Part shown: positions 7,047 to 20,853 of the stretch, piece by piece
Layout of the letters: each line of letters begins with the position of its first letter
How positions within the stretch are numbered: the stretch's first letter is position 1
Virus record (IMG/VR): IMGVR_UViG_3300017753_000144
Coordinates: 1-20,853 of that record
Direction: 5' to 3' (one strand)
Length of the DNA stretch: 20,853 nt
DNA from: a virus
The notes under the pieces: model-generated
What the model saw: only the letters and a program-made list of their open reading frames with translations
Databases searched by the model: none
What the model was told of the DNA's origin: nothing
Made by a program: the position numbers and the translations under genes

Positions 7047-8253
7047 ATGGCTAAAGACAGCTAGACCTAAACAGCTACCGCCGAAAGAAGATTTCTTTAT
7101 CTGGCTAATACTGGCGGGTCGTGGTTGGGGCAAGACTCGTACAGGTGCGCAAGACATAGCTTTATACGCACTCAGAAATCCAAATACCATCAGCGCAGTT
7201 ATAGCGCCAACATTCGGTGATTTAAGGCGAGTCTGTTTTCAAGGCAACAGTGGTCTTTTATCTATTATACCCAAAGACTGCTATTCAACTGAGTTTGGTA
7301 CATACGGCTATTCATCAACGATATGTGAGATAAGATTATCTAACGGCTCAAAGATTGTAGGGTACGCCGCACATAATCCAGATAGATTGAGAGGTAGTCA
7401 GTTTCATAGAGCTTGGGCTGACGAGCTTTGTGCTTGGGAATATCCAGAAGCATTTGACCAGTTAATGTTTGGGTTGAGATTAGGTGATGACCCTCAATGC
7501 ATAATAACAACAACACCGAAGCCAACTGGATTGCTAATGGGATTACTAGACCGTGAAGATGTAACGATTACCAAAGGCAACACTTTTGAGAATGAAGCTA
7601 ATCTTGCAACATCAGCGCTTGAAATGATGCGCTCAAGATATGAAGGCACTACATTAGGTAGGCAAGAACTCTATGCAGAGGTGTTAGAGGATATAGAAGG
7701 CGCTCTATGGTCAAACAAGCTGATAGATGAAGCTAGACTGCCTTATGATACCGAAAAAGAGCTTATACAAATTATAGTGGCGATTGACCCCGCAGTCACA
7801 GCTAATGAGAACTCAGATGAAACAGGAATAATTGTGGTTGGTAAAGATGCAAATAATGAGTATTATGTACTTGAAGACTTATCGGGCAAGCATTCTGCTG
7901 ATGGTTGGGGTAAGATAGCTATAAAGGCTTACTATGAATGGGAAGCTGATAGGATTGTGGCAGAGGTAAACAATGGTGGTGACTTAGTGGAAAGATTAAT
8001 TCGCAACATAGATATGAATGTTCCATATAGGTCAGTTAGAGCGTCACGAGGTAAAATGGTTCGTGCTGAACCTATTGCGGCTCTATACGAACAAAGGCGC
8101 GTTCATCATATTGGTGTTTTTAAAGAACTGGAATCGCAGATGTGTTCCTACACAGGACAAAACAAACCGAGTCCTGATAGATTAGATGCCTTAGTTTGGG
8201 GATTGTCAGAACTAAGCAAGTCGCGTGGCATCGTTAATTGGAGAATTAGCTAA
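6946..8253 (+). CDS. terL: terminase large subunit (packaging ATPase and nuclease)
   Basis: 435 residues if the ATG at 6946 is used; TTG codons at 6994 and 7003 are shorter alternatives, and family members usually begin close to the segment ARPKQLPP. The ATPase shows an adenine-region and Walker A stretch FFIWLILAGRGWGKTRTGAQ (K63) and Walker B AWADE (D159, E160), followed by a TTTPKP coupling motif. The RNase H-like nuclease shows VAIDPA (D281), VAEVNNGG, and PDRLDALVWG (D411, D414). This is the Terminase_6 / Terminase_6C layout. It packs DNA into the prohead through the portal encoded by the next gene, whose start overlaps this stop by one base (TAATG). Confidence 0.9.
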   Translation: MQKSQTHPHSEKLWNCLTRLQTNAEKSTIQLYTEWLKTARPKQLPPKEDFFIWLILAGRGWGKTRTGAQDIALYALRNPNTISAVIAPTFGDLRRVCFQGNSGLLSIIPKDCYSTEFGTYGYSSTICEIRLSNGSKIVGYAAHNPDRLRGSQFHRAWADELCAWEYPEAFDQLMFGLRLGDDPQCIITTTPKPTGLLMGLLDREDVTITKGNTFENEANLATSALEMMRSRYEGTTLGRQELYAEVLEDIEGALWSNKLIDEARLPYDTEKELIQIIVAIDPAVTANENSDETGIIVVGKDANNEYYVLEDLSGKHSADGWGKIAIKAYYEWEADRIVAEVNNGGDLVERLIRNIDMNVPYRSVRASRGKMVRAEPIAALYEQRRVHHIGVFKELESQMCSYTGQNKPSPDRLDALVWGLSELSKSRGIVNWRIS

Positions 8254-10289
8254 TGGCATTATTGGATAACATTAAGAATGTATTTACCATCAGAGGTAAC
8301 GAATACAAAAGAGCAAGCAACATGGTCGGATATTTTGGTGTTGGTGCGAGTGAAGGCAAACAATACAAATACCAAGACTTAGCAAAAGAAGGCTACCTAA
8401 AGAACGCAATTGTATATAGATGCGTTAATGAGATATCTAAAGGCGCGGGTGCTGTAGATTATTGCGTTAAAAGCGGTGATACCATGCTAGAAAATCACCC
8501 ATTGCAAGTATTGATAGACAGACCAAACCCATTGCAATCAAACACAGAATTTTTTAATGCTTTATTTGGCTTCTTACTTCTTAGTGGTAATGCATATATC
8601 CTGAGAGTGGGTGGAGAGATAGGCGCACCAAAAGAACTTCATCTGCTTAGACCAGACAGAATCCGCATCAATGGCGGTAAAAAGCCCATACCAGAAAGCT
8701 ATGACTATGTAATCAATGGTAGAGTGCAAGCATCTTATCCAGTAGACCAAGACACAGGTTATAGTCAACTCAAGCACATCAAGCTATGGAATCCATTAGA
8801 TGATTTCTACGGTTGTTCACCTTTATCTGCGGCGGCAGTAGAAGTAGACCAACATAATCTATCAAGCAAGCACAATATCAACCTACTAAACAATGGCGCT
8901 AGACCTAGTGGGGCGGTAATATTTAAACCTAAAGATGAATCAGGGTTCAATGTAAATCTAACAGAGGGGCAAAGACAGCAACTCTTAACAGACCTAAACA
9001 ATAGATTTCAAGGTGCGGGTAATGCGGGCAGACCGTTATTGTTAGAAGGTGACTTTGATTGGAAAGAGATGGGATTGAGTCCAAAAGATATGGATTTCAT
9101 CAACCTAAAACACATGAGCGCCACAGACATAGCCTTATGCTTTGGCGTGCCAAATCAATTAGTGGGCGTACCTGATGCACAGACTTACTCTAATGTTGCA
9201 GAAGCTAGACTTGCTCTATATGAAGAAACAATCATACCTCACCTAAAGTTAATACAATCAGATATCAATGAATGGTTAGTGCCTATGTTTAGCGAGAATG
9301 TAAGATTTGAGTATATGTATGAGAACATCCCCGCACTATCTGAGCGCAAAAGAAAGACTTATGAGAATGTAACAAGCGCTGTAAGAGAAGGCATAATGAC
9401 TCGTAATGAAGCCAGAGAGATACTAGGTCTTAGTCCTATTGATGGTGGTGATGAAATATATATATCATCAACCTTGTTCCCAATAGGCTCAGAATCAACA
9501 CCAGAGCCTACACCAGAGGAAGAAGAACTGGATATTCAAGACTATGAAGATGAAGAAGAAGATGATGATGAAAAGGACATAGACGACATTATCTGGGATG
9601 AGGATGTGAAGGCTATTGCAGACATAGACCTTACACCAACAGATGGCATGGCGAGTGAAGCAGAGCGCGGGCTTAAATGGAGAAAAGAATTCAATCGTGG
9701 TGGCACTATGGTAGGTGTAGCCAGAGCCAATCAATTAGTTAGAAAAGAAAACTTATCGCCTAGCACGGTACGCCGAATGTTTAGTTTCTTCAGTAGACAT
9801 GAAGTGGATAAGCAAGGGCAAGGATTCAAGGTAGGTCAGGAAGGCTATCCAAGTGCGGGCAGAATAGCATGGGCGCTCTGGGGTGGTGATGCGGGATTTG
9901 CATGGTCAAGAAAGAAGCGTAACCAATTAGAAGCCGAAGCAGAGAAGATGCTAAAGCAAGATAAACATACAGGTATCACTGAACTGAAAGCACCAATATC
10001 AGCAAAAGTGAAAGAGGGGTTGAAAAACAAAGTAGAGAAACACAACGAGAAGTACGGAGATAAACCAACAAAGCGGGCAACACTAAGAATGCTTGAAGCG
10101 GTATTTAGGAGAGGGGTTGGCGCATATAACACGAACCCACAGTCAGTAAGACCAAGTGTAACCAATCAAGACCAGTGGGCTTATGCCAGAGTAAACAGTT
10201 TTCTAACGGCATTGCGTACTGGTAGGTTTAGAAGTGGTAAACACGATACAGACTTATTCCCTAAAGGACACCCATTGTCTAGTAAGTAA
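8253..10289 (+). CDS. HK97-type portal protein with two extra C-terminal modules
   Basis: 678 residues, much longer than the usual 400-450 for this family. Residues 1 to about 410 are the portal: NAIVYRCVNEISKGAG, HPLQVLIDRPNP, FLLLSGNAYI, and SATDIALCFGVPNQLVGVPD then YSNVAEARLALYEETIIPHL. An acidic linker follows at about 420-455 (EEDDDEKDIDDI). Module 1 (about 460-560) has EAERGLKWRKEFNRGGTMVG, RRMFSFFSRHEVDK, and YPSAGRIAWALWGGDAGFAW. Module 2 (about 575-678) has KHNEKYGDKPTKRATLRMLE, FRRGVGAYNTNPQSVRP, WAYARVNSFL and KHDTDLFPKGHPLS. Both look like conserved modules I associate with phage virion genes, but I cannot name them. The portal forms the dodecameric DNA gate at one head vertex. 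Confidence 0.85.
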   Translation: MALLDNIKNVFTIRGNEYKRASNMVGYFGVGASEGKQYKYQDLAKEGYLKNAIVYRCVNEISKGAGAVDYCVKSGDTMLENHPLQVLIDRPNPLQSNTEFFNALFGFLLLSGNAYILRVGGEIGAPKELHLLRPDRIRINGGKKPIPESYDYVINGRVQASYPVDQDTGYSQLKHIKLWNPLDDFYGCSPLSAAAVEVDQHNLSSKHNINLLNNGARPSGAVIFKPKDESGFNVNLTEGQRQQLLTDLNNRFQGAGNAGRPLLLEGDFDWKEMGLSPKDMDFINLKHMSATDIALCFGVPNQLVGVPDAQTYSNVAEARLALYEETIIPHLKLIQSDINEWLVPMFSENVRFEYMYENIPALSERKRKTYENVTSAVREGIMTRNEAREILGLSPIDGGDEIYISSTLFPIGSESTPEPTPEEEELDIQDYEDEEEDDDEKDIDDIIWDEDVKAIADIDLTPTDGMASEAERGLKWRKEFNRGGTMVGVARANQLVRKENLSPSTVRRMFSFFSRHEVDKQGQGFKVGQEGYPSAGRIAWALWGGDAGFAWSRKKRNQLEAEAEKMLKQDKHTGITELKAPISAKVKEGLKNKVEKHNEKYGDKPTKRATLRMLEAVFRRGVGAYNTNPQSVRPSVTNQDQWAYARVNSFLTALRTGRFRSGKHDTDLFPKGHPLSSK

Positions 10290-10294
10290 TACCT

Positions 10295-12433
10295 ATGTTA
10301 GACCCTTACTCACACAGAGAAAACGCTGTCAGGGCGCACACAGGGGCTAGAATTCTTGCAAAGATACAGCAAAAACGCCTTAATTCCTTTAAACAAGGCA
10401 GAATCAATGTCAGGAAAGAAGTAAGAAGGCAACGCCGATTACGCAATAATTTAGAGAAAATGGTATTCAGAAGATTGAGTAGCTTACTACCCAAGCACAT
10501 AAGAACACAGGCAAGTATATTCAAAGTATCAGGGTCATTCTCAAGGAACGCATCAAACAGGCAACTAGAAAACGAACTCTTTGCCGTTATGAGTAAGCAC
10601 TACCGTAGAATATTTATGACGGTATTCAAAGACAATGAGTCAAGATATGAAAAGATAAACAAAAGCGTAGATGTAACCGTGTTTGGTAGAAACAGAGATA
10701 TTGAAAGATTAATCAGTGTCTACAACAACGATAGAAACCTTTATCTAGCAAATATGACTCAATCAGTGACTAGGAATATCCAGAATGTCATTACAAAGGG
10801 TAGAGCAGATGGCGCTACATTAGACCAGATATCCAAAAACATTAGGAACACAGCACCCATAGCAAGACGCAGAGCCGCCGCTATTGCCAGAACAGAAACA
10901 CACAATGCCGCTAGTTTTGCACAGCATGAGTATCACGGAATCATACAAAACGAGTATGGCGTTAACATGATGAAGAAATGGGCGGCTACTAATGACCTAA
11001 GAACACGGTCAGCGCATAGCGCGGTCAATGGACAGACAAGGGCTATGGATGAAGCATTTGATGTAGGTGGCGCTCAGATGATGCACGCGGGTGACCCTAA
11101 AGGTGGTGCAAAGAATGTTATCAACTGTAGGTGTGTCATTATTTATGTTGATGCAGATGAAATAGAGGAAGCAGTAGATACAACAGCGCCATCAAGAAAA
11201 CCAGTAAACGATTTTGGTGAACAGCACCCAGATGAAATTAAACCAAACAAAGAATCATTCAAAGGTGATGAGAATATAAGTATCGTGAATAGAAGGGCGC
11301 AACCGTTGAATGATGTCACTCATATAAGAAAAGGTGCTTTCTTTCATCATAGTGGCACGATTAATATGGGGTCAAACTATGGAAGGTCAGGCGCTTCATA
11401 TAATAGCGTGTGGCGGCATGAAAAAGGACACGCATTTGATTACGACACGAAATTTATGTCTGTGATGGGTGATTATGCCGCTAGAGCAAAATTTTTAAAT
11501 ATAGGGCATGACAAGCTGATGCGGTCTAAGATAAAAAATGCCGTTGACATTGAATCTGATAAAATTAGAGGAGTAGGGTCAGGAAAATCAACTTACATCA
11601 GTAGATTCGGTATATCATCTTTCATGGCAAAACAAATTTTAGATGATAGGAAACTACTACGGAAAAGAAACAATGACATCAAAAAGAAAAGAAAAAATAA
11701 AGATTTAGAAAAAAATACTACAGCTAATGATTTAAAACTTGGTGTTTCATCTAAGGTAGTGACAAAGAGCAGAGAAATAGAAGTATTAGGAGAAAAAAGA
11801 ACAATAACAGATGACAAAACTATATGGGAAACAAACCTAAGTAAAGCGCAATTCATTAAGAAATGGAAATCAGAGCTTGATAAATCAGAATCAATTTTGA
11901 AGTATGATGATTTAAAAGTATTGTATGGTGATGATTTTCTTGAATCTGCTTACGATATTGCAAAATTACCAAATAACATGGAAACCTCGTATTTCGGTAC
12001 AGGCAAAAGTTTCCGTGATTTGTCATCTTGGCTAACAAACTTAAAGTATAACAATCTCGGTAATGGGTCAGATTGGTTAAAGTCAAACTTCAATTATTAT
12101 CTAGCAAAATCACAAAAATCAGAATCTATAAAAGACATAACAAACTTTTCTGATTTGATAGGTTCAATAACTAATAATAGCGTAATGGATGGTCATACCA
12201 AAAGGTACTATTCAAGTTTCCCAAAACTTGCAACTGGCTTGTCTGACGGTCACTTAACAGAAACATTTGCAAACTTTACTTGTTTATTGGGAAGTAAAAA
12301 TGCTGATACATGGCGTAAAGTCTTGGCATACCACACGCCTGATTCATTAAAAGAATATGATGAAATTATGGAAGCACTGGCAAAAGCTAAAGCCATAGAT
12401 GAAGCAGATGTGGCTTTGATGGATTTAACATGA
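10295..12433 (+). CDS. Mu F-like minor head protein fused to an HExxH metallopeptidase-like domain
   Basis: 712 residues. Residues 1-160 are basic and helical. The Mu F head-morphogenesis domain lies at about 165-290: ARRRAAAIARTETHNAASFA, KWAATNDLRTRSAHSAVNGQ, and the closing NCRC (C278, C280). After a Pro-rich break comes an unrelated C-terminal region, about 310-712. It contains VWRHEKGHAFDY with H375-E376-K-G-H379, the HExxH zinc site of metallopeptidases, and far downstream HLTETFANF (E656), a suitable third ligand for a gluzincin-like site. Mu F proteins sit inside the head near the portal, and C-terminal effector domains on them are known from polymorphic phage toxins. No clear ribosome-binding site precedes the ATG. 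The C-terminal half looks richer in A+T than the Mu F half. Confidence 0.75.
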   Translation: MLDPYSHRENAVRAHTGARILAKIQQKRLNSFKQGRINVRKEVRRQRRLRNNLEKMVFRRLSSLLPKHIRTQASIFKVSGSFSRNASNRQLENELFAVMSKHYRRIFMTVFKDNESRYEKINKSVDVTVFGRNRDIERLISVYNNDRNLYLANMTQSVTRNIQNVITKGRADGATLDQISKNIRNTAPIARRRAAAIARTETHNAASFAQHEYHGIIQNEYGVNMMKKWAATNDLRTRSAHSAVNGQTRAMDEAFDVGGAQMMHAGDPKGGAKNVINCRCVIIYVDADEIEEAVDTTAPSRKPVNDFGEQHPDEIKPNKESFKGDENISIVNRRAQPLNDVTHIRKGAFFHHSGTINMGSNYGRSGASYNSVWRHEKGHAFDYDTKFMSVMGDYAARAKFLNIGHDKLMRSKIKNAVDIESDKIRGVGSGKSTYISRFGISSFMAKQILDDRKLLRKRNNDIKKKRKNKDLEKNTTANDLKLGVSSKVVTKSREIEVLGEKRTITDDKTIWETNLSKAQFIKKWKSELDKSESILKYDDLKVLYGDDFLESAYDIAKLPNNMETSYFGTGKSFRDLSSWLTNLKYNNLGNGSDWLKSNFNYYLAKSQKSESIKDITNFSDLIGSITNNSVMDGHTKRYYSSFPKLATGLSDGHLTETFANFTCLLGSKNADTWRKVLAYHTPDSLKEYDEIMEALAKAKAIDEADVALMDLT

Positions 12434-12708
12434 AATACGAATATTGGTTAGTAAATGGAGTCATATATGACAAATTTTTTGAAGTAGAGAAATTAGATGT
12501 TTTGTATGGCAATTATCTTTTTATAACGAATGAAGATGCGGGTACACATATACCCACATATAAATTTCCTGATGGAGATATGCTTAAAAAAACAGATATA
12601 AACAAGATAGCTAAACTGATACAAAGAGCAATAGACAACAACACGAAACTCAAGGCAGAGGATATATCTGAGATAGTAACTGATTATCCAGATGATGTTC
12701 TGATATAA
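12430..12708 (+). CDS. small acidic protein overlapping the Mu F-peptidase stop; possible immunity partner
   Basis: 92 residues. The ATG at 12430 overlaps the preceding TGA (ATGA), so the two proteins are likely made together. The sequence is acidic (about 17 Asp/Glu against 11 Lys/Arg) and starts with aromatic-rich strands (KYEYWLVNGVIYDKFFEVEK), followed by LFITNEDAGTHIPTYKFPDG and a helix with INKIAKLIQRAI. No family is recognised. Small, acidic proteins directly behind a toxin-like domain are often its inhibitors, so an immunity role is a reasonable guess. It could equally be a small virion component. The gene ends in the A-run of a terminator hairpin. Confidence 0.6.
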   Translation: MKYEYWLVNGVIYDKFFEVEKLDVLYGNYLFITNEDAGTHIPTYKFPDGDMLKKTDINKIAKLIQRAIDNNTKLKAEDISEIVTDYPDDVLI

Positions 12709-12728
12709 AAAAACCGCCCGAAGGCGGT
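12707..12728 (-). terminator. intrinsic terminator of the minus-strand cassette
   Basis: A perfect 6-pair stem ACCGCC/GGCGGT (12713-12718 with 12723-12728) encloses four bases. On the minus strand the loop is TTCG closed by C and G, an unusually stable tetraloop, and the stem is followed by seven T (the A-run at 12707-12713). This is a strong terminator for the genes at 12752-13873. In the plus direction only a weak T-tract (TCTTAATAAT) follows, so it may also slow plus-strand transcripts after 12708. Confidence 0.85.
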
Positions 12729-12751
12729 CTTAATAATCATGCAGTGAAGGA

Positions 12752-13216
12752 TTAAGCTACTTTATTTTCTTCAACTTCTGACTTACAGACCCCATGCCTA
12801 AGTAAAACTTGATTTGAAATGAGCCTGTAGTGCTTCTCTGTAATGAGATGTAAAAGGTCATTACCAGATTCAGAGAGTCTAACTGAAAATAGCCCATTCA
12901 CTAAAGGATATACAGTGAATAATCTCATTCCAATAATGCTTGTTTTTTTCTCTATACGATTCCATGTTGAATAATTTATTTGTTCCAAATCAATCATTTT
13001 CATTTTAGGATGGAATTCAGAGCCACAACCTCTTTCAAAACACCATTTATTAAAAGAAATATAGCAACAGAAATTAGTTAGCGCGATTATTTCATTGTTG
13101 GTTAATGGCTTGCGGTCGTTTTCAGATAAATATACAGCAACCGCGCCAATCATTTCATTAATATAAACATTCCATTCAGGTCTTTCTGATTTTAACGAAC
13201 TCATTTTCTTATTCAT
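12752..13216 (-). CDS. hypothetical protein, 154 residues (reversed cassette)
   Basis: Start ATG at 13216 with AAGGGGAT about 6 bases upstream. It begins with a Lys/Ser-rich tip, then a helix WNVYINEMIGAVAVYLSEND and LTNNEIIALTNFCCYISFNK. The cysteine-containing part CFERGCGSEF and the stretch SIIGMRLFTVYPLVNGLFSV are followed by a helical end. No known domain is recognised. It is the second gene of a two-gene unit read against the surrounding head genes, ending at the terminator at 12707-12728. The position fits a moron, an accessory gene expressed independently of the late genes. Confidence 0.55.
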   Translation of the reverse strand: MNKKMSSLKSERPEWNVYINEMIGAVAVYLSENDRKPLTNNEIIALTNFCCYISFNKWCFERGCGSEFHPKMKMIDLEQINYSTWNRIEKKTSIIGMRLFTVYPLVNGLFSVRLSESGNDLLHLITEKHYRLISNQVLLRHGVCKSEVEENKVA

Positions 13217-13237
13217 TTTTATCCCCTTTGGAGTGGC

Positions 13238-13873
13238 TTACGCCACCCCCATAGTTTCAAGTAGTTTATTTTTAGCAATCTTCTTGCCGTTAAGTGAGAA
13301 AGCGCATCTGTAACTGGTGCTACGCCTTGTGTATATGCTTTTCTGTCTAGTGATTGTCAGAGTTATATCACCAATGCTTACGCTTTTTGTGATTGACTTC
13401 TGATAACCCGCTAAGTAGTTTCTTCTTTTGCCGTATTGGTTTTCAACAACTTCATAATCATTGAAGCCTTCTGCAACTTCTGTTTCCATGTTTACTAATA
13501 ATTCTTTACCATCAGCAACATTCATTAAAGGGTTACCGTTTACTGTTTCAATTTTTTCTGCGAGATATTTGATGTAATTTTCTGCACTTGAGATAGAGAA
13601 TTCTAATTCTCTGGCAGTGTCATCATCCACACCGCCTAATGATTTTAATTCTTCTCTTTTTACTTTTATCTGATATTGAATGTTAGAAATAGTAGCTTCA
13701 GCAACCAACTTAGAAACTTCTAATGGCTCTATGTCAGAGCCTTTGCAAGTGCCATTAAAAAAACCAAACTGAACATCATAGCCATGTTTAGCAATCAAAT
13801 TATCATTAGTGCTGACCGCTTGCACTCTACCGCAAACTTGGCAATGCCCTTTATGTGTGTGTGTATCTCTCAT
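13238..13873 (-). CDS. hypothetical protein with N-terminal zinc-binding motif, 211 residues
   Basis: Start ATG at 13873 with AAGGAA 6 bases upstream. The N-terminus reads HKGHCQVCGRVQAVS (C11-x2-C14), then LIAKHGYDVQFGFFNGTCKG. This set of Cys and His residues looks like a small zinc-binding module, which I remember as a recurring opening of phage hypothetical proteins. A coiled-coil-prone middle follows (IQYQIKVKREELKSLGG ... RELEFSISSAENYIKYLAEK), then a beta-rich basic C-terminus (SIGDITLTITRQKSIYTRRS). The gene is the first of the reversed cassette, 21 bases before its partner, and faces the capsid-block promoter. Function unknown. Confidence 0.6.
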   Translation of the reverse strand: MRDTHTHKGHCQVCGRVQAVSTNDNLIAKHGYDVQFGFFNGTCKGSDIEPLEVSKLVAEATISNIQYQIKVKREELKSLGGVDDDTARELEFSISSAENYIKYLAEKIETVNGNPLMNVADGKELLVNMETEVAEGFNDYEVVENQYGKRRNYLAGYQKSITKSVSIGDITLTITRQKSIYTRRSTSYRCAFSLNGKKIAKNKLLETMGVA

Positions 13874-13904
13874 ATTTTTTCCTTATATTTAATTAAACAA
13901 CACA

Positions 13905-13935
13905 ATAATAGTAACACCTATAGTTATTATTGCAA
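13905..13935 (-). promoter_or_regulatory. candidate promoter of the reversed cassette
   Basis: On the minus strand TTGCAA (13930-13935) is followed after 16 bases by TACTAT (plus-strand 13908-13913), or after 19 bases by TATTAT (13905-13910). Either could be the -10 box; the transcript would reach the AAGGAA ribosome-binding site about 25 bases later. The segment also holds inverted 7-base arms AATAATA (13904-13910) and TATTATT (13925-13931), 21 bases apart centre to centre, which could be an operator over the promoter. All AT-rich, so chance matches are easy. Confidence 0.4.
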
Positions 13936-13978
13936 CTACTTTAATACTTTTTTATGAAGTTTTTTTTAACCGTTTTTT

Positions 13979-14026
13979 TTGACCTCTGGTTAATTTATTG
14001 TAAGATTGTTTGTGTTGGGCTAATAT
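13979..14026 (+). promoter_or_regulatory. candidate promoter of the capsid gene block
   Basis: TTGACC (13979-13984) with a 16-base spacer leads to TAAGAT (14001-14006). A second option is TTGTAA (13998-14003) with a 17-base spacer and TAATAT (14021-14026). Three T-runs lie upstream at 13948-13953, 13960-13967 and 13973-13980. This is the only sizeable gap before the protease gene, and the cassette behind it is reversed, so the capsid block needs a start signal here. The ribosome-binding site AGAGGAAA is at 14041-14048. Confidence 0.45.
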
Positions 14027-14055: not shown

Positions 14056-14997
14056 ATGAACACTGGAAATGCGATGCTAGATGTTCAGGCTAATGAGCCT
14101 ACTTTGAAAGAAGATTCTATAGAGAATGATGCAAAGGAAGAAATCAGGCGTGATGTATTCACTACTGAAGAAGAAGCTCAAGACAGAGCAAAAGAATTAG
14201 GATGTGACGGAATCCACAAACATGATGAAGATGGCAATACAATCTATATGCCATGCAAAACACATGAGGAATATGTACTTGCTACAGGTACAGATGTAAA
14301 AAGCCAACACATTGAATTCAAATCAGAAATAAAAGCATACCAAGACGAAGAAGATGAAGAAAAAGGCGAGTATGGTCGTTTTGAAGGTTATGCATCTGTA
14401 TTTGAAAATACTGACTTAGGTAATGATGTAATTAAGACAGGCGCTTTCAAAAAGAGTATAAGACGGCGCGGCAATAAAGGTGTCAAACTTCTATACCAAC
14501 ATAAGAGCGATATGCCTATTGGTGTATTTGATTCTATTAAAGAAGATGACCACGGTCTTTATGTAAAAGGTAGACTTGCATTGCAGACACAGGCGGGCGG
14601 TGAAGCCTATGAATTATTAAAAATGGGTGCTTTAGATGGAATGTCTATAGGATTTAGAGCAGACCCTAAAACGATTACTTACGACAAGCGTTCTAAAAAA
14701 AGAATGATTGGTGAAGTAGATTTAATGGAAATTAGTCTAGTCACGTTCCCGATGAATCCGAAAGCTACGGTGATGTCGGTAAAAGGCGAAGCGGTTTCTA
14801 TTAGAGAGTGGGAAAATGGAATGCGAGATGCCTTCAATCTTTCTCGTTCTGAAGCAAAGATGGCGGCAAAAGCCGTTCATCATGCCTTTGAATCTAAATC
14901 AAGTAGTGAGATGCTACGAGAGAAAGAAGAAAAAGAGCAAAAAGAACTGGTAGATGCCATAAAAACCTTAACTTTAACCCTAAAAACATCTAACTAA
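14056..14997 (+). CDS. prohead protease, HK97 gp4-like (peptidase family S78)
   Basis: 313 residues; start ATG at 14056 with AGAGGAAA upstream. The protease core spans about 85-240: GRFEGYASVFENTDLGNDVI, LLYQHKSDMPIG with the likely catalytic H149, ALDGMSIGFRA with the nucleophile S197, and LMEISLVTFPMNPKA, a typical S78 ending. It cleaves the scaffold part of the capsid protein during head maturation and sits directly before the capsid gene, as expected. Residues 1-75 form an extra N-terminal piece with a short module AQDRAKELGCDGIHKHDEDG then IYMPCKTHEEY, holding two Cys and several His. The C-terminus (after 250) is helical and charged and may act as internal scaffold. Confidence 0.87.
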   Translation: MNTGNAMLDVQANEPTLKEDSIENDAKEEIRRDVFTTEEEAQDRAKELGCDGIHKHDEDGNTIYMPCKTHEEYVLATGTDVKSQHIEFKSEIKAYQDEEDEEKGEYGRFEGYASVFENTDLGNDVIKTGAFKKSIRRRGNKGVKLLYQHKSDMPIGVFDSIKEDDHGLYVKGRLALQTQAGGEAYELLKMGALDGMSIGFRADPKTITYDKRSKKRMIGEVDLMEISLVTFPMNPKATVMSVKGEAVSIREWENGMRDAFNLSRSEAKMAAKAVHHAFESKSSSEMLREKEEKEQKELVDAIKTLTLTLKTSN

Positions 14998-15010: not shown

Positions 15011-16234
15011 ATGTCTGGAACTGAAGATGTAAAAACAGTCTTACAGGAGTATGGTCAAGCATTTGATGAATTCAAAAAAGCTAATGACGAGAAACTTGAT
15101 AGACTAGAAAAAGGTTTGGGTGAAGATGCTTTGTTGAATGACAAGATGAGCAAGATTGAAGCAAAACTTGATTCTCTTGAAGATATCAACCAAACACTCA
15201 CACAAACTAAAGCCGCGCAAGATGGCGTAGCTGAAAAAGTAGAGCAACTAGAAACGGTTCTTGCTAGACCCAATTCTGGTTATGATGCTAAATCAGCAGA
15301 CGAGCTTTGCGTAGCATTTGAGTCATATTGTCGTAAAGGATTTGATTCTTTATCTGATATGGAAAAGAAAGCACTTACTGTAAGCAATGACACTACAGGC
15401 GGTTACTTAGCACCCCCAGAATATGTAAGAGAGTTACTTAAAACTGTAACTGAAATCTCACCTATTCGTGGTATTGCTAGACTCCGTACTACTGGTCAGC
15501 GCAGTATCCAAGTACCTAAGAGAACTGGTCAGTTTGCCGCATCATGGGTAGCTGAAAGCGGAACTCGTGCAGAAACTACTGGATACGCTGTAGGTCTTGA
15601 AGAAATACCCGCACATGAGCATTACGCTCTAGTGGATATCTCTGAGCAAGACTTAGAGGATTCAGTATTTGATTTAGAAGCAGAAATGCAATCAGAATTT
15701 GCAGAGCAATTTGCAAAAGCTGAAGGTACTGCTTTTGTATCAGGTAATGCAGTAGGTAAACCAGAAGGCTTCATGACTAACGGTGACGTTGGTGAAGTAG
15801 TATCTGGTCATGCTTCTACTATATTAGCTGACGGTCTTATCGGTCTGGTACATGGCATCAAGTCTGAGTATGCAAAGAACGGTACTTTTGTTTTTAACAG
15901 AACTACTCTTTCTAGCATCCGTAAGCTGAAAGATACTGCGGGTCAGTATGTTTTCCAAGCGGGCATGATGCTTACAGGCGGTGTGACTAACACTGTATTA
16001 GGATATCCATACGTTGAAGCAACTGATATGCCATCTGAAGGTAGTAACACTTACCCAGTAGCATTCGGTGATTTCTCTCGTGCCTACATGATTGTAGACA
16101 GGGTATCTATGGCGGTCTTGCGTGACCCATTCACACAGGCTACTACTGGTAACGTGCGATACATTGCACGCCGTAGAGTCGGTGGACAAGTGGTTCAAGC
16201 TGAGGCTATCGTTAAACAAAAATGTTCAACATAA
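15011..16234 (+). CDS. major capsid protein, HK97 fold
   Basis: 407 residues; start ATG at 15011 with AAAAAGGAAA upstream. Residues 1 to about 90 are a charged coiled coil (FDEFKKANDEKLDRLEKGLG, KIEAKLDSLEDINQTL) corresponding to the delta scaffold that the upstream protease removes. The body begins around residue 120 with SNDTTGGYLAPPEYVRELLK, and carries ISPIRGIARLRTTG, QFAASWVAESGTRAETTG and EIPAHEHYALVDISEQDLED, the HK97 E-loop and spine signatures. It ends with GDFSRAYMIVDRVSMAVLRD. This Phage_capsid pattern and the neighbours leave little doubt. Hundreds of copies build the icosahedral shell. The stop is 18 bases before the next start. Confidence 0.92.
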   Translation: MSGTEDVKTVLQEYGQAFDEFKKANDEKLDRLEKGLGEDALLNDKMSKIEAKLDSLEDINQTLTQTKAAQDGVAEKVEQLETVLARPNSGYDAKSADELCVAFESYCRKGFDSLSDMEKKALTVSNDTTGGYLAPPEYVRELLKTVTEISPIRGIARLRTTGQRSIQVPKRTGQFAASWVAESGTRAETTGYAVGLEEIPAHEHYALVDISEQDLEDSVFDLEAEMQSEFAEQFAKAEGTAFVSGNAVGKPEGFMTNGDVGEVVSGHASTILADGLIGLVHGIKSEYAKNGTFVFNRTTLSSIRKLKDTAGQYVFQAGMMLTGGVTNTVLGYPYVEATDMPSEGSNTYPVAFGDFSRAYMIVDRVSMAVLRDPFTQATTGNVRYIARRRVGGQVVQAEAIVKQKCST

Positions 16235-17245: not shown

Positions 17246-17596
17246 ATGAGCGCGGGTTATCATCATTTTGTAATAGAACAAGGGGCTACATTCGGACAAG
17301 TCCTGACACTGAAGGATTCTAGCGGTACAGTAATTAATTTAACTGGTTACAGTAGCGCTGAAATGGATTTGAGAGAAAATCCTGAGTCTGACAGCGTTAT
17401 CATGACATTAACTACAGCAAACAGCAGAATCGCTTTAGGTGGTGCGGCGGGTACTGTCACATTATCAATAAGCGCTACAGATACAGCTAATCTATCAACT
17501 GGTGATGGCGTATATGACCTAGAGATTGTAACTGGCAGTAGTATATACCGTATTCTTGAAGGTACTTACAGCGTAAGAAGGAATATGAGTAGATGA
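17246..17596 (+). CDS. small structural protein, beta-rich, 116 residues
   Basis: Start ATG at 17246 with AGAGGAATAGG upstream. The sequence HHFVIEQGATFGQVLTLKDS, INLTGYSSAEMDLRENPESD, then a short ITLG-type hairpin (RIALGGAAGTVTLSIS) and GVYDLEIVTGSSIYRILEGT resembles a family of small phage proteins with an immunoglobulin-like beta fold encoded next to tail-fibre genes. The ending YSVRRNMSR is basic. It probably joins or anchors the fibre encoded next, whose start overlaps this stop (ATGA at 17593). This is inferred from position and fold. Confidence 0.62.
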   Translation: MSAGYHHFVIEQGATFGQVLTLKDSSGTVINLTGYSSAEMDLRENPESDSVIMTLTTANSRIALGGAAGTVTLSISATDTANLSTGDGVYDLEIVTGSSIYRILEGTYSVRRNMSR

Positions 17597-20500
17597 GTGG
17601 TACAGACAACATTACTATCAATCCTACTAGTACCATTAATCAAATTGAAGTAACTGACTCAACAAACATCTCAATAGTAACCGTTGGTACTCAAGGTCTA
17701 GCGGGTGCAAATACTTTACTTGGCAGAGATGTTGATTCTGCAACTGCAAGCACGGCGGGGTCATTGGTTATATATGACCATGACAATACAGAATGGATAG
17801 ATAGCCAATCAACAAGAGCGCAATCCGTACCCGCAAAAATATACAGTCTAATATTCACCAGTGGTGGTGCTACTGTCACAGGCGTACTAGATGAAGATAA
17901 TCTAGGCTCAGACAGCAACAGCAAACTTGCCACACAGCAATCAATTAAAGCGTATGTAGATGCACAGATAACAGCGCAAGATATGGATTTTCAAGGCGAT
18001 AGTGGTGGCTCTTTATCCATAGACCTAGATAGCGAAACATTCACCGTAGCGGGCGGTACAGGCATTGATACTGTAGGTGGCACTAATACCATTACTGTCA
18101 GCATAGATTCAACTGTAGCGACATTGAGCGGCTCTCAGACACTAACAAACAAAGTATTAACAAGCCCAGATGTAAACGCACCAGATATAGACGGTGGAAC
18201 AATAGATGGGGCAACCATAGCAACATCAAACATCACAGTAGGCTCTGGTAAAACATTAGATGTATCAGGTGGAACATTTACCCTAGCAAATAACCAAATA
18301 TCAGGTGATAAAGTAGAGGGTGGTACTATTGCCGCAACTACAATCACAGATTTAGCTTCAACTACGGTAGATACCACAAACATTGAAGTAACAAACATAA
18401 AAGCAAAAGACGGCACTGCGGCGGGTTCAATAGCCAACTCAACAGGTGTTGTCACATTAGCAAGCTCAGTATTAACAACGACAGACATCAATGGCGGTAC
18501 TATAGACGGAACTAATATAACTGTAGGTAGCGGTAAAACCCTTGATGTATCAGGCGGTACATTCACATTAGCTAATGACCAAATAAGCGGAGATAAGATA
18601 CAAGGCGGTACAGTCGCATCAATGACCATTACGGCAATGACAGGTACGCTAGAAACTGCCGCACAACCTAATGTAACTTCACTAGGTACACTATCCGCAC
18701 TAACCGTTGATGATATAGCGTTAGATGCCAAAACAGTAACAATGACAGGCTCATCTGGTGATACGGCTACCTTAGTAGTAGGTACTAACGGAACGCTTGA
18801 TATAACAACTACAGATGCTTCTGCGGCGGCGGCTAATATTCAAATTACTGCTGATGGTACAGCAGAACTAGCGGGAACTACCGTAACCTTAGATTCAAGT
18901 GGCGGTATTACGCTAGATGCAGACGGTGGCACAATTACATTTGCAGACGGTGGCTCATCATTAGGAACAATTACATCTTCTGGTTATACAGGTGATGTTG
19001 TTGGTAACGCTTCTACTGCAACGGCTCTGGCTACTGCAAGAACAATAGGCGGTACATCTTTTGATGGAACAGCAAACATATCTGTAGCATTGGCAGATAC
19101 GGCTACTGCTTTAGCTACTGCGAGAACAATACATGGCGTATCTTTTGACGGTACAGCTAATATAGACCTCAGTGAAGTAATATCAGACACAGTAGGGGCT
19201 ATGTTTAGCTCAAACACGGAAACAAATATAACCGTTACTTATCAAGATTCAGACAATACTATTGATTTAGTAATTGGCACGCTTAACCAAGACACTACAG
19301 GTACAGCAGACAACTTTACAGTGACCGCTAACAACTCTACTGATGAAACGGTATATCCAATATTTGTTGACGGTGCTACTGGTTCACAAGGTGCTGAAAC
19401 TGATACTGGTTTAAGCTATAACCCTAGCTCTGGAAACCTAACAATAGGTGGTGCGCTTGTAGCCGCAACCTTAGACATATCAGGTAACGTAGATGTAGAT
19501 GGTACATTGGAAGCTGATGCTTATACTGTAGATGGCACGGCATTAGATGAATTCATAGCTGATACCGTTGGCGCAATGGTTTCTAGTAACACAGAAACGA
19601 ATGTAACTGTTTCATACCAAGACTCTGATAACACATTAGATTTCGTAGTAGGAACTTTAAATCAAGACACAACAGGTAACGCCGCAACTGCAACAGCGCT
19701 AGAAACAGCAAGAAACATAGCATTAGCGGGTGATGTAACAGGTACAGCATCATTTGATGGCACAGGCAATATATCTATAACTTCAACAATAGCCGCAAAT
19801 AGTGTGGCTTTGGGTACTGATACAACAGGTAATTATGTTGCAACAATAGCGGGTACATCAAACGAGATTGAGGTAAGTGGGTCAGGCTCAGAAAGTGCGG
19901 GCGTAACAATCGGCTTGCCAGATAACGTCACAATAGCGGGCAACCTAACTGTTACAGGTGATTATACAGTCAATGGTGATACTACAACTGTTAATACAGC
20001 AACCTTAACCGTTGAAGACCCTCTAATTAAATTAGCAAAAGCAAACTCAAGCGCTGATTCAGTAGATATAGGTTTATATGGATTGTATGACACATCTGGT
20101 TCTCAAGACTTGTACTCTGGTCTATTTAGAGATGCTAATGACTCAGGAAAGTGGAAGCTATTCAAAGACTTACAAGCAGAGCCAACAACCACAGTAAATG
20201 TATCAGGAACAGGTTATGCGGTTGGAACTTTAGTAGCAAATTTAGAAGGGGCGGTCACAGGTAACGCAAGCACGGCTACAACCCTAGCAACGGCACGCAC
20301 AATCGGTGGTACAAGTTTTGACGGTTCAGCAAATATCGCAGTAGCATTAGCGGATACCGCAACCGCACTAGCAACCGCACGGAATATTGGTGGTACTTCA
20401 TTTGACGGAACTGGAAATATAGATGTAGCTTTATCTACTCTTGCAACCAACATAACCGTATCAGCGAATAACTCAACTGACGAAACTGTCTACCCATTGT

Positions 20501-20853
20501 TTGTAGATGGGGCAACTGGAACGCAAGGGGCAGAAACAGATACAGGTCTTACTTATAATCCTTCAACAGGAATGCTAACAAGCAGTGGATTCACAGGTGC
20601 ATTGACAGGTAATGCTTCAACCGCAACCACATTAGCCACAGCGCGTACCATTGGTGGTACATCATTTGATGGGTCAGCAAACATAGCGGTAGCACTTGCC
20701 GCCACTGCAACTACACTAGCTACGGCGCGTACCATTCATGGTGTAAGTTTTGATGGATCAGCTAATATTGATCTATCAGAGGTTATTTCAGATACCGTAG
20801 GTGCAATGTTCTCATCTAATACAGAGAGCGGCATAACGGTAGCCTATCAAGAC
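17593..20853 (+). CDS. giant repetitive tail fibre protein, C-terminus beyond the window
   Basis: Open frame of 1087 codons with no stop, starting at the ATG at 17593 that overlaps the previous stop; AAGGA lies about 11 bases upstream. The N-terminus has SIVTVGTQGLAGANTLL and a repeated GSGKTLDVSGGTFTLAN module, and the rest is built of Gly/Thr/Ala/Ser/Asp-rich repeats such as GNASTATALATARTIGGTSF then DGTAN, and NSTDETVYPIFVDGATG. One non-repeated segment, VDIGLYGLYDTSGSQDLYSG then LFRDANDSGKWKLFKDL, is typical of marine phage fibres. There are no Cys, no signal peptide and no enzyme motif so far. It would form a long trimeric beta-fibre for host attachment. The receptor-binding tip and any chaperone are expected past 20853. 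Confidence 0.82.
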   Translation, partial: MSGTDNITINPTSTINQIEVTDSTNISIVTVGTQGLAGANTLLGRDVDSATASTAGSLVIYDHDNTEWIDSQSTRAQSVPAKIYSLIFTSGGATVTGVLDEDNLGSDSNSKLATQQSIKAYVDAQITAQDMDFQGDSGGSLSIDLDSETFTVAGGTGIDTVGGTNTITVSIDSTVATLSGSQTLTNKVLTSPDVNAPDIDGGTIDGATIATSNITVGSGKTLDVSGGTFTLANNQISGDKVEGGTIAATTITDLASTTVDTTNIEVTNIKAKDGTAAGSIANSTGVVTLASSVLTTTDINGGTIDGTNITVGSGKTLDVSGGTFTLANDQISGDKIQGGTVASMTITAMTGTLETAAQPNVTSLGTLSALTVDDIALDAKTVTMTGSSGDTATLVVGTNGTLDITTTDASAAAANIQITADGTAELAGTTVTLDSSGGITLDADGGTITFADGGSSLGTITSSGYTGDVVGNASTATALATARTIGGTSFDGTANISVALADTATALATARTIHGVSFDGTANIDLSEVISDTVGAMFSSNTETNITVTYQDSDNTIDLVIGTLNQDTTGTADNFTVTANNSTDETVYPIFVDGATGSQGAETDTGLSYNPSSGNLTIGGALVAATLDISGNVDVDGTLEADAYTVDGTALDEFIADTVGAMVSSNTETNVTVSYQDSDNTLDFVVGTLNQDTTGNAATATALETARNIALAGDVTGTASFDGTGNISITSTIAANSVALGTDTTGNYVATIAGTSNEIEVSGSGSESAGVTIGLPDNVTIAGNLTVTGDYTVNGDTTTVNTATLTVEDPLIKLAKANSSADSVDIGLYGLYDTSGSQDLYSGLFRDANDSGKWKLFKDLQAEPTTTVNVSGTGYAVGTLVANLEGAVTGNASTATTLATARTIGGTSFDGSANIAVALADTATALATARNIGGTSFDGTGNIDVALSTLATNITVSANNSTDETVYPLFVDGATGTQGAETDTGLTYNPSTGMLTSSGFTGALTGNASTATTLATARTIGGTSFDGSANIAVALAATATTLATARTIHGVSFDGSANIDLSEVISDTVGAMFSSNTESGITVAYQD
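18229..18612 (+). repeat. tail-fibre repeat C: two 33-codon copies
   Basis: Copies at 18229-18327 and 18514-18612 encode nearly the same protein, opening NITVGSGKTLDVSGGTFTLA and continuing with an ISGDK motif and GGT. The only amino-acid changes are N to D, V to I and E to Q near the end. Many codons differ between the copies. The spacing is 285 bases, the in-between part also ending in an INGGTIDG-like lead-in. Confidence 0.85.
19003..19302 (+). repeat. tail-fibre repeat A, full-length copy 1
   Basis: A 100-codon unit: two ATARTI-GG/HG-TSFDG-TANI half units followed by SEVISDTVGAMFSSNTE, TVTYQDSDNT and GTLNQDTTG. Further copies are partial: 19549-19677 (second half only), 20260-20436 (first half), and 20608-20853 (copy cut by the window edge). 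Protein identity is high while codons differ widely. Confidence 0.88.
19312..19443 (+). repeat. tail-fibre repeat B, copy 1
   Basis: A 44-codon unit with ANNSTDETVYPIFVDGATGS then QGAETDTGL and YNPSSGNLT. The second copy is at 20449-20580, same length, with a handful of conservative changes (I to L, S to T). A B unit follows A copy 1 after three codons, and B copy 2 lies between A copies 3 and 4. Confidence 0.88.
19549..19677 (+). repeat. tail-fibre repeat A, copy 2 (second half only)
   Basis: 43 codons matching the second part of repeat A (19174-19302) in exact register and length: DTVGAM-SSNTETN, SYQDSDNTLDFVVGTLNQDT. It is followed by a degenerate first-half-like stretch (NAATATALETARNIALAGDV), so the A units seem circularly permuted through the fibre. 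Confidence 0.82.
20260..20436 (+). repeat. tail-fibre repeat A, copy 3 (first half)
   Basis: 59 codons with two half units: GNASTATTLATARTIGGTSF then DGSANIAVALADTATALATA and RNIGGTSFDGTGNIDVALS. The SEVISDTVG part is absent; repeat B copy 2 follows four codons later. Confidence 0.85.
20449..20580 (+). repeat. tail-fibre repeat B, copy 2
   Basis: 44 codons aligned without gaps to 19312-19443; reads SANNSTDETVYPLFVDGATG then TQGAETDTGLTYNPSTGMLT. Confidence 0.88.
20608..20853 (+). repeat. tail-fibre repeat A, copy 4 (runs off the window)
   Basis: 82 codons aligned without gaps to the start of copy 1 at 19003; the window ends inside its YQDSDNT motif, so the repeat, and probably the alternating A/B pattern, continues. 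Confidence 0.88.

Follow-up and report, generated by a model that had tools for sequence, protein, structure and literature searches.

A putative lethal-factor-type zinc peptidase on a phage Mu F head protein and the small acidic partner gene that accompanies it

Organization of the Mu F–peptidase locus

The IMG/VR virus record IMGVR_UViG_3300017753_000144, analysed as one stretch of 20,853 bases (hereafter the window), contains a head-gene region in the order portal gene, Mu F gene, small gene, two reverse-strand open reading frames (ORFs), S78 prohead protease gene and major capsid protein gene. The Mu F gene (10,295–12,433, + strand) encodes a fusion protein of 712 amino acids (aa), in which a Mu F domain is followed by a putative zinc-peptidase extension. 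The Mu F domain occupies residues 161–283 (10,775–11,143, +; PF04233, expectation value E 1.8e-17, 64.5 bits against a cut-off of 29.6) and contains N277-C278-R279-C280 near its end. The extension of 413 aa (residues 300–712; 11,192–12,430, +) possesses the stretch W373-R374-H375-E376-K-G-H379, in which the HEKGH zinc motif (residues 375–379; 11,417–11,431, +) is followed by D382. A variable insert of about residues 385–610 (11,447–12,124, +), delimited by alignment and model secondary structure, connects the HExxH helix to a conserved C-terminal core with a second motif, D620..G633-H634...Y638-Y639 (12,152–12,211, +), and with E656 in ETFANF (12,260–12,262, +), the proposed third zinc ligand.

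The small gene (12,430–12,708, +) encodes 92 aa, and its ATG (12,430–12,432) overlaps the TGA stop of the fusion gene (12,431–12,433) in an ATGA junction. The small protein is acidic, with an isoelectric point (pI) of 4.6 and a charge of about −6, while the pI of the extension is 9.2. A preliminary description of this DNA had named the Mu F domain ending in NCRC, the long unrelated extension with HEKGH and E656, and the acidic 92-residue ORF overlapping the stop, and all these features are found at the residues given there.

Conservation of the peptidase motifs

Relatives of the extension were collected with a DNA pattern encoding W-R(or similar)-H-E-x-G-H-A, which met 67 stretches in viral contigs, and a hidden Markov model (HMM) from four close sequences distinguished true family members within the 6,647 ORFs that the collected loci (numbered with L) contain. 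Duplicates (L037, L050, L055, L061, L062, L073, L079 and copies of L001–L003) were merged, and the incomplete L016, L028, L049, L063, L067 and L004 were excluded both from the alignment, A3, and from the partner count below. A3 contains 27 members, and its 22 more distant rows share 17–30% identity with the window. D382, D620, G633-H634, Y638 and E656 are invariant in all 27, which agrees with the role previously proposed for E656.

The conservation of HExxH in A3 is not independent evidence, because HExxH was part of the first search pattern. Therefore, a second scan used only the D620..Y639-type motif, without HExxH, to remove this selection bias. It met 67 stretches, yielding 57 new loci with 38 genes that are distinct when compared over the final 150 residues. 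HE..GH lies upstream in 57 of the 57 loci, and a later E-x-[hydrophobic]-A was found in 56 by regular expression and in the remaining one, L108, by eye; hence the zinc motif is kept in homologues chosen without it, whereas its loss in homologues would have spoken against the preliminary description. These loci include a second clade, in which the motifs take the forms HExxHxxH and E..AH. The second motif follows HExxH at a distance of 82–243 residues in these loci, so that the insert suspected behind the long gap between HExxH and E656 is present and its length varies within the family. Furthermore, dN/dS (nonsynonymous to synonymous substitution rates) of 0.18–0.30 in three comparisons indicates purifying selection on the peptidase.

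Predicted fold of the extension

The AlphaFold2 model of the extension (m5d311845a0b2, built from A3) has a predicted local distance difference test score (pLDDT) of 85.3 and a predicted template modelling score (pTM) of 0.87. HExxH is located in helix 68–84 and E656 in helix 352–366 (extension numbering), and the ten-residue blocks concerned have mean pLDDT of 97 and 98. In the VIA-align comparison, lethal factor entries occupy ranks 1–23, and the next other protein has a Z of 4.2. The catalytic domain of anthrax lethal factor (4dv8) is matched with a Z of 11.1 and a root-mean-square deviation of 3.3 over 157 aligned residues, at 13% identity at best. In lethal factor, the zinc ligands lie on an HExxH helix and a later Glu helix. 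The prediction and fold search proposed earlier thus support a lethal-factor-like zinc-peptidase fold, and H375, H379 and E656 would share a metal site in it. Meanwhile, only two phage proteins fall under E 0.001 in a Foldseek search of BFVD, one of them annotated as 'Phage head morphogenesis domain containing protein' (E 4.8e-5).

The extension reaches no Pfam or NCBIfam family at cut-off and has no PADLOC match and, when scanned alone, no PHROGs match. Among the curated peptidase families, none is better than E 0.0043 in any of the 27 members; PF18818 appears in one of the 27, only at E 0.046, and phrog_4415 ('peptidase') matches weakly (E 0.028–0.041) in two.

The small acidic partner family

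A partner gene lies at the end of all 27 aligned peptidase genes, all of which have a complete 3' end: in tandem in 23 and inverted, thereby convergent, in four (L035, L045, L046 and L059). The tandem partners mostly start within about 25 nucleotides (nt) of the peptidase stop, and that of L031 begins well inside the peptidase frame. In leave-one-out tests, the neighbour ranked first in 22 of 24 cases among the 48–232 ORFs of each locus; in the remaining two, both from L032, it ranked second, outscored only by the additional partner that this locus contains. Relatives of at least 55% identity were excluded from training and those below 55% stayed; L001, L045 and L052 were not tested. The window partner was recovered at rank 1 of 221 ORFs (E 2.5e-5), and the weakest case was L035 (E 0.061). 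Profile comparisons connect the window group with the inverted group (E 1.4e-5) and with the rest (E 1.6e-4), and the inverted group with the rest (E 0.0032), and none of 200 column shuffles each reached the observed scores. Judged from these comparisons, the partners beside the aligned genes are homologous and form one family, and the small gene is linked to the peptidase as proposed from the window.

A similar arrangement is observed in the second-scan sample. A co-directional follower of 50–105 aa is present in 32 of 36 evaluable genes (the 38 distinct genes minus two near contig ends), compared with 11 of 127 other long ORFs, some of which are not genes (Fisher p 2.7e-20). The other four genes have an HMM-detected neighbour: in tandem in L096 (56 bits), inverted in L101 and L127 (43 and 26 bits), and inverted and weak in L108 (11.6 bits, E 0.096). 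The pI lies between 4.1 and 5.3 for the 44 small proteins for which it was computed (21 tandem and 23 from the second clade, inverted ones excluded).

The preliminary description regarded small-gene homologues found widely without the peptidase as a sign against the pairing. Searches of phages and viral contigs, of limited sensitivity, gave no partner homologue away from a peptidase among the matches listed. A viral-contig scan with the A8 partner profile gave only its three source loci among the matches listed, and the L040 partner had no match in phages.

Several candidate likenesses were rejected. A Vibrio phage match to the window small protein (E 0.6) lies inside a capsid gene and was taken as chance. 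phrog_653 covers only a 31-residue stretch in the window and three near relatives, has no match in the 17 further virus records scanned, and shows additional matches within a 1150-aa Nodularia phage frame and in 6 of 14 control genomes. A likeness to the partner HMM just before the L039 peptidase domain (15.8 bits) was dropped, being absent at that place in L028, L029 and L046.

Relatives with and without the cassette

The arrangement of the window is repeated in L001, L002 and L003. Compared with these, L008/L009 carry a Mu F part 66% identical to that of the window, with a protein that ends at 295 aa and a match that extends to residue 291. The S78 protease gene of L009 starts 67 nt past the Mu F stop, with no extension, small gene or reverse-strand genes between. 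Because the leader preceding the protease gene is alike (by eye) in L009 and the window, about 2.8 kb, near 11,168 to 13,990, can be regarded as an optional piece, the right edge of which was placed by eye from this leader. The window itself contains a separate S78 prohead protease (14,056–14,997, +; PF04586, E 1.5e-33), as previously noted. L008/L009 keep the head genes with a bare Mu F protein; hence, heads in that lineage are built without the peptidase, as had been anticipated from the separate protease. From the gene content of these relatives, the peptidase–partner cassette is dispensable. As a separate observation, the Mu F part of L001 (4118–6204) is split into two frames (73 + 614 aa) with the peptidase part open, which may be an assembly error or a deletion.

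Joint replacement between close phages

Aligned in 150-base steps, the window and L003 share 87–99% DNA identity at 9000–11,399, and identity falls to 37–69% at about 11,400–12,600, an approximate block comprising the peptidase body and the N-terminal half of the partner. Identity returns to 94% at 12,600–12,749 (3' half of the partner), falls again to 31–38% at 12,750–13,199 (next reverse-strand ORF), and is 94–97% at 13,200–13,499, 69 and 85% at 13,500–13,799, and 92–100% beyond. The Mu F parts are 99% identical and the extensions 63%. Similarly, the synonymous divergence (dS) is low in Mu F (0.107) and in the C-half of the partner (0.121), and high in the peptidase (1.697) and in the N-half of the partner (0.873). 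The peptidase body and the partner N-half therefore diverge as one block and were exchanged together, as expected of a matched pair. In the partner, dN/dS of 0.23–0.58 makes purifying selection less clear than for the peptidase.

Carrier proteins

The peptidase is situated on several kinds of carrier. Besides the window protein, a Mu F domain lies above the Pfam cut-off in 11 of 20 chosen members (4 of 10 plus 7 of 10), and L018, L029, L060, the second L032 gene, L107, L112 and L096 have no Pfam domain at cut-off. In L044 (2935–7110, +) and L031 (2811–6935, −), DUF2213, topoisomerase IB and then the peptidase follow each other in one frame of 1,375–1,392 aa.

Three further arrangements were observed. 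L032 (1–3462) contains two consecutive peptidase–partner pairs in one phage. In L039 (2572–5445, +), the head part is separated from the peptidase by a stretch like the C-terminus of XopAD-type effectors (NF041399, E 2.3e-22, well short of the whole-protein cut-off of that model). In L104 (8038–11,442, +), an intein/Hint-like insert follows Mu F (PF14890, E 1.3e-7, below cut-off; PF13403, E 3.1e-7, above).

Occurrence in named phages and bacterial genomes

At E up to 1, tblastn recovered no relative of the window extension from named phages or plasmids. When L060, L032, L046, L077, L017 and L019 were compared with phages, only four Nodularia phage records were met, all via L060. In Nodularia phage kac65v151, gp123 (L085; NC_048756, 139,462–140,285) contains the C-terminal half of the domain without HExxH and lies beside a transposase gene; the adjoining gp122 is partner-like (HMM E 9.9e-7 among 152 ORFs). 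The strict DNA pattern, applied to genome_contigs (84,980 species), met a single stretch, L081 of Nocardia, a 296-aa ORF with HEFGHAVD that was not placed in the family. Prophage copies of the family therefore look rare under this strict pattern.

Neighbouring features of the window

The portal gene lies at 8253–10,289 (+; PF04860, E 2.7e-74) and the major capsid protein gene at 15,011–16,234 (+; PF05065, E 6.2e-74). The two reverse-strand ORFs (12,752–13,216, −, 154 aa, variable among relatives; 13,238–13,873, −, 211 aa) have no Pfam match. Across relatives the first measures 154, 77 or 100 aa, and the second, 303–305 aa in L001–L003, appears as if internally shortened in the window. Between the partner gene and these ORFs, a terminator-like hairpin (12,710–12,731, −) may exist, one being found against a shuffle mean of 0.7, which is weak evidence; a promoter scan gave fewer sites than in shuffled sequence. 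At the end of the window, a 1,087-aa open frame with repeated ATALATARTIGGTSFDGTANI-like units (17,593–20,853, +) runs out of the record and perhaps encodes a tail or fibre protein.

Proposed mechanism and alternative explanations

The interpretation that we consider reasonably probable is an effector–partner cassette of the Mu F toxin kind, in which a head protein carries a delivered zinc protease that is restrained by a small partner. This interpretation draws on the sequence family, the fold match, the conserved motif, the dispensability of the cassette, the conserved linkage, and the joint replacement in one phage pair. The Mu F part would place a few copies of the protein in the head near the portal. 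The extension would act as a gluzincin-type endopeptidase with H375, H379 and E656 as ligands, E376 as the general base and D382 adjacent, and the variable insert may select the substrate. Entering the bacterium with the phage DNA, the peptidase would cleave a protein of the host. The stop–start overlap probably allows the 92-aa protein to be made from the same mRNA. In the producing cell, this small protein would bind the basic peptidase domain and hold it inactive or in its correct fold, with the N-terminal half of the small protein fitting the variable peptidase body. The partner could be a folding chaperone instead.

Catalysis, packaging, delivery, the host target and inhibition are inferred parts of this interpretation, and several observations weigh against it. 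The Foldseek search of the PDB gave no significant match (best lethal factor row E 0.76, probability 0.09), and the fold claim therefore rests on VIA-align and the order of the motif helices. The joint replacement was seen in one phage pair, and the window and L002 show no such contrast (dS 0.317 in Mu F, 0.223 in the peptidase and 0.099 in the partner). The next reverse-strand ORF differs between the window and L003 as well, and thus the spot is variable in general. Inverted neighbours in seven loci, L108 weakly, imply that translation need not be coupled. The model of the partner is mediocre (pLDDT 75, pTM 0.68), and its fold search gave no informative match (best Z 2.7). The followers of the second clade resemble the first-clade partners only marginally (E 0.015 with profile A7, 0 of 100 shuffles, at least one hhalign shuffle score being unreliable), and their profile comparison with the window group or the inverted group is not significant. 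Finally, the tyrosine integrase family PF00589 was found in 0 of 22 records, which are mostly fragments and include L009, the relative with a bare Mu F, as well as the Nodularia phage that carries gp123; serine integrases were not searched.

It is also conceivable, but in our view unlikely, that the peptidase processes itself or the head, cutting the Mu F protein or its neighbours for ejection, with the partner as a timing inhibitor or assembly chaperone and no host target. Iyer et al. proposed autoproteolysis for packaged polyvalent zincins such as P1 DdrB, and weighted processing most, with host targets as a further option (PMC5512222; here and below, statements on published work refer to the portions of each paper drawn on). 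The presence of a partner beside 27 of 27 genes and the failure to find PF00589 in the 22 records fit an assembly role better than lysogen immunity. However, in the related lineage the head genes are retained while the Mu F protein is bare, and since the peptidase is the only recognised extra part of the window protein, self-cleavage would have little to release. Moreover, the exchange of the peptidase body beside a 99% identical Mu F part fits an outward target or partner specificity better.

A polymorphic toxin that protects lysogens shares the enzyme and the delivery with the effector–partner interpretation and differs in that the partner would shield lysogens or siblings while the peptidase poisons competitors. 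The gene order of MuF toxins and their small-ORF rule, by which an ORF under 150 aa follows 89.4% of 191 toxins (PMC5576092), are shared by the window, and in the inverted loci the position of the partner on the other strand could allow its expression independently of the late genes. According to Jamet et al., MuF toxins occur exclusively in temperate phages, with p = 0.055 in their own toxin-gene test (PMC5576092), a tie that the preliminary description had adopted. In the present family it is doubtful: the integrase result and the single non-family stretch in genome_contigs leave lysogen immunity without support here, and we rate this explanation as improbable. Least probable of all is an inactive module whose lethal-factor fold binds a host factor, DNA or the portal with the small protein as folding partner, for although catalysis is only inferred and gp123 still adjoins a partner-like gene without HExxH, the motif and the later Glu are kept in every locus collected without using HExxH, and gp123, beside its transposase gene, may be a remnant.

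A broader form of the effector–partner interpretation is offered tentatively, as a possibility we hold at somewhat less than even. The locus may belong to a large undescribed class of effector pairs, in which a lethal-factor-fold protease is mounted on varied head proteins (Mu F types, DUF2213–topoisomerase fusions and linker-only carriers), always with an acidic partner, mainly in non-temperate phages. The partner would then be an assembly-time inhibitor left behind at packaging, so that the protease is switched on only after ejection, and the peptidase body and the partner face would be co-swapped among closely related phages. On balance, the interpretation given in the preliminary description is partly supported.

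Comparison with known systems

Anthrax lethal factor resembles the extension in its fold over the aligned residues and in the succession of an HExxH helix and a Glu helix. The window extension differs in its low identity, its long insert, its phage head carrier and the bacterial target expected for it. Lethal-factor-like toxins for delivery by Photorhabdus virulence cassettes (PVC) and the type II secretion system (T2SS), with another immunity protein, were described by Zhang et al. in 2012 (PMC3482391).

The zincin-like MPTase domain (PF18818) of Iyer et al. 2017 contains HExxH, a Glu on a later helix and variable inserts in packaged phage proteins, and a profile search from one such domain also reached lethal factor 4dv8 (PMC5512222). 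The window family shares with it the motif, the later Glu, the insert between the helices and the Asp three residues after HExxH, which Iyer et al. note in one phage clade; this Asp is the invariant D382, and a His occupies its place in the second clade. A possible counterpart of the conserved His at the end of strand 2 of PF18818 is H352, which is invariant in the four closest sequences only and not in A3. In contrast, PF18818 is barely detected in the aligned members, and no linked small partner is described for it in the portions of that paper drawn on.

The MuF polymorphic toxins of Jamet et al. 2017 are alike in the Mu F N-terminus, the variable C-terminal extension and the small downstream ORF; 20% of their 191 toxins carry a metallopeptidase domain, and 75% of the toxin domains are common to other polymorphic toxin families (PMC5576092). 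The window contains the PF04233 domain, an extension of more than the 100 aa used there (413 aa, absent in L009) and an ORF of less than 150 aa (92 aa, with the ATGA overlap), and the Pfam, NCBIfam and PADLOC scans returned no domain common to other polymorphic toxin families. Unlike these toxins, the peptidase also occurs on carriers in which no Mu F domain is recognised, the partners of the aligned set are one homologous family with some members inverted, and no PF00589 was found in the mostly fragmentary records. The MuF toxin Apk2, an adenosine 3'-pyrophosphokinase of prophages, was tested with its immunity protein IapK (PMC12226406); this pair is alike in that a binding inhibitor mainly fits its own toxin, and unlike in that the toxin is not a peptidase. 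For the head part, the portal protein carries SPP1 gp7, in few copies, to the inside of the procapsid, and gp7 assists the onset of infection (PMC6316719). In phrog_4728 ('head morphogenesis'), the C-terminal part matches L019 (E 2.0e-11) and L044 (E 1.8e-10), and the window protein is matched in its Mu F part only.

No paper pairing this peptidase with its partner was found in the open-access collection searched, which did not include the supplements of Jamet et al., and the peptidase may be among the domains already counted by these authors. MuF toxins and packaged zincins are known as predictions, few of them with a defined partner, and the cited literature, as far as drawn on, gives no host target for a peptidase. 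In the present family, the protease and its partner stay together across about 20% identity, several carriers and gene inversion. Such pairing across divergence, together with the co-swap, provides ready cognate and non-cognate pairs, which address whether a phage delivers a protease to its host, what the protease cuts, and how it is silenced during particle assembly. We regard the general kind as known, and the conserved partner family and its joint replacement with the peptidase as new.

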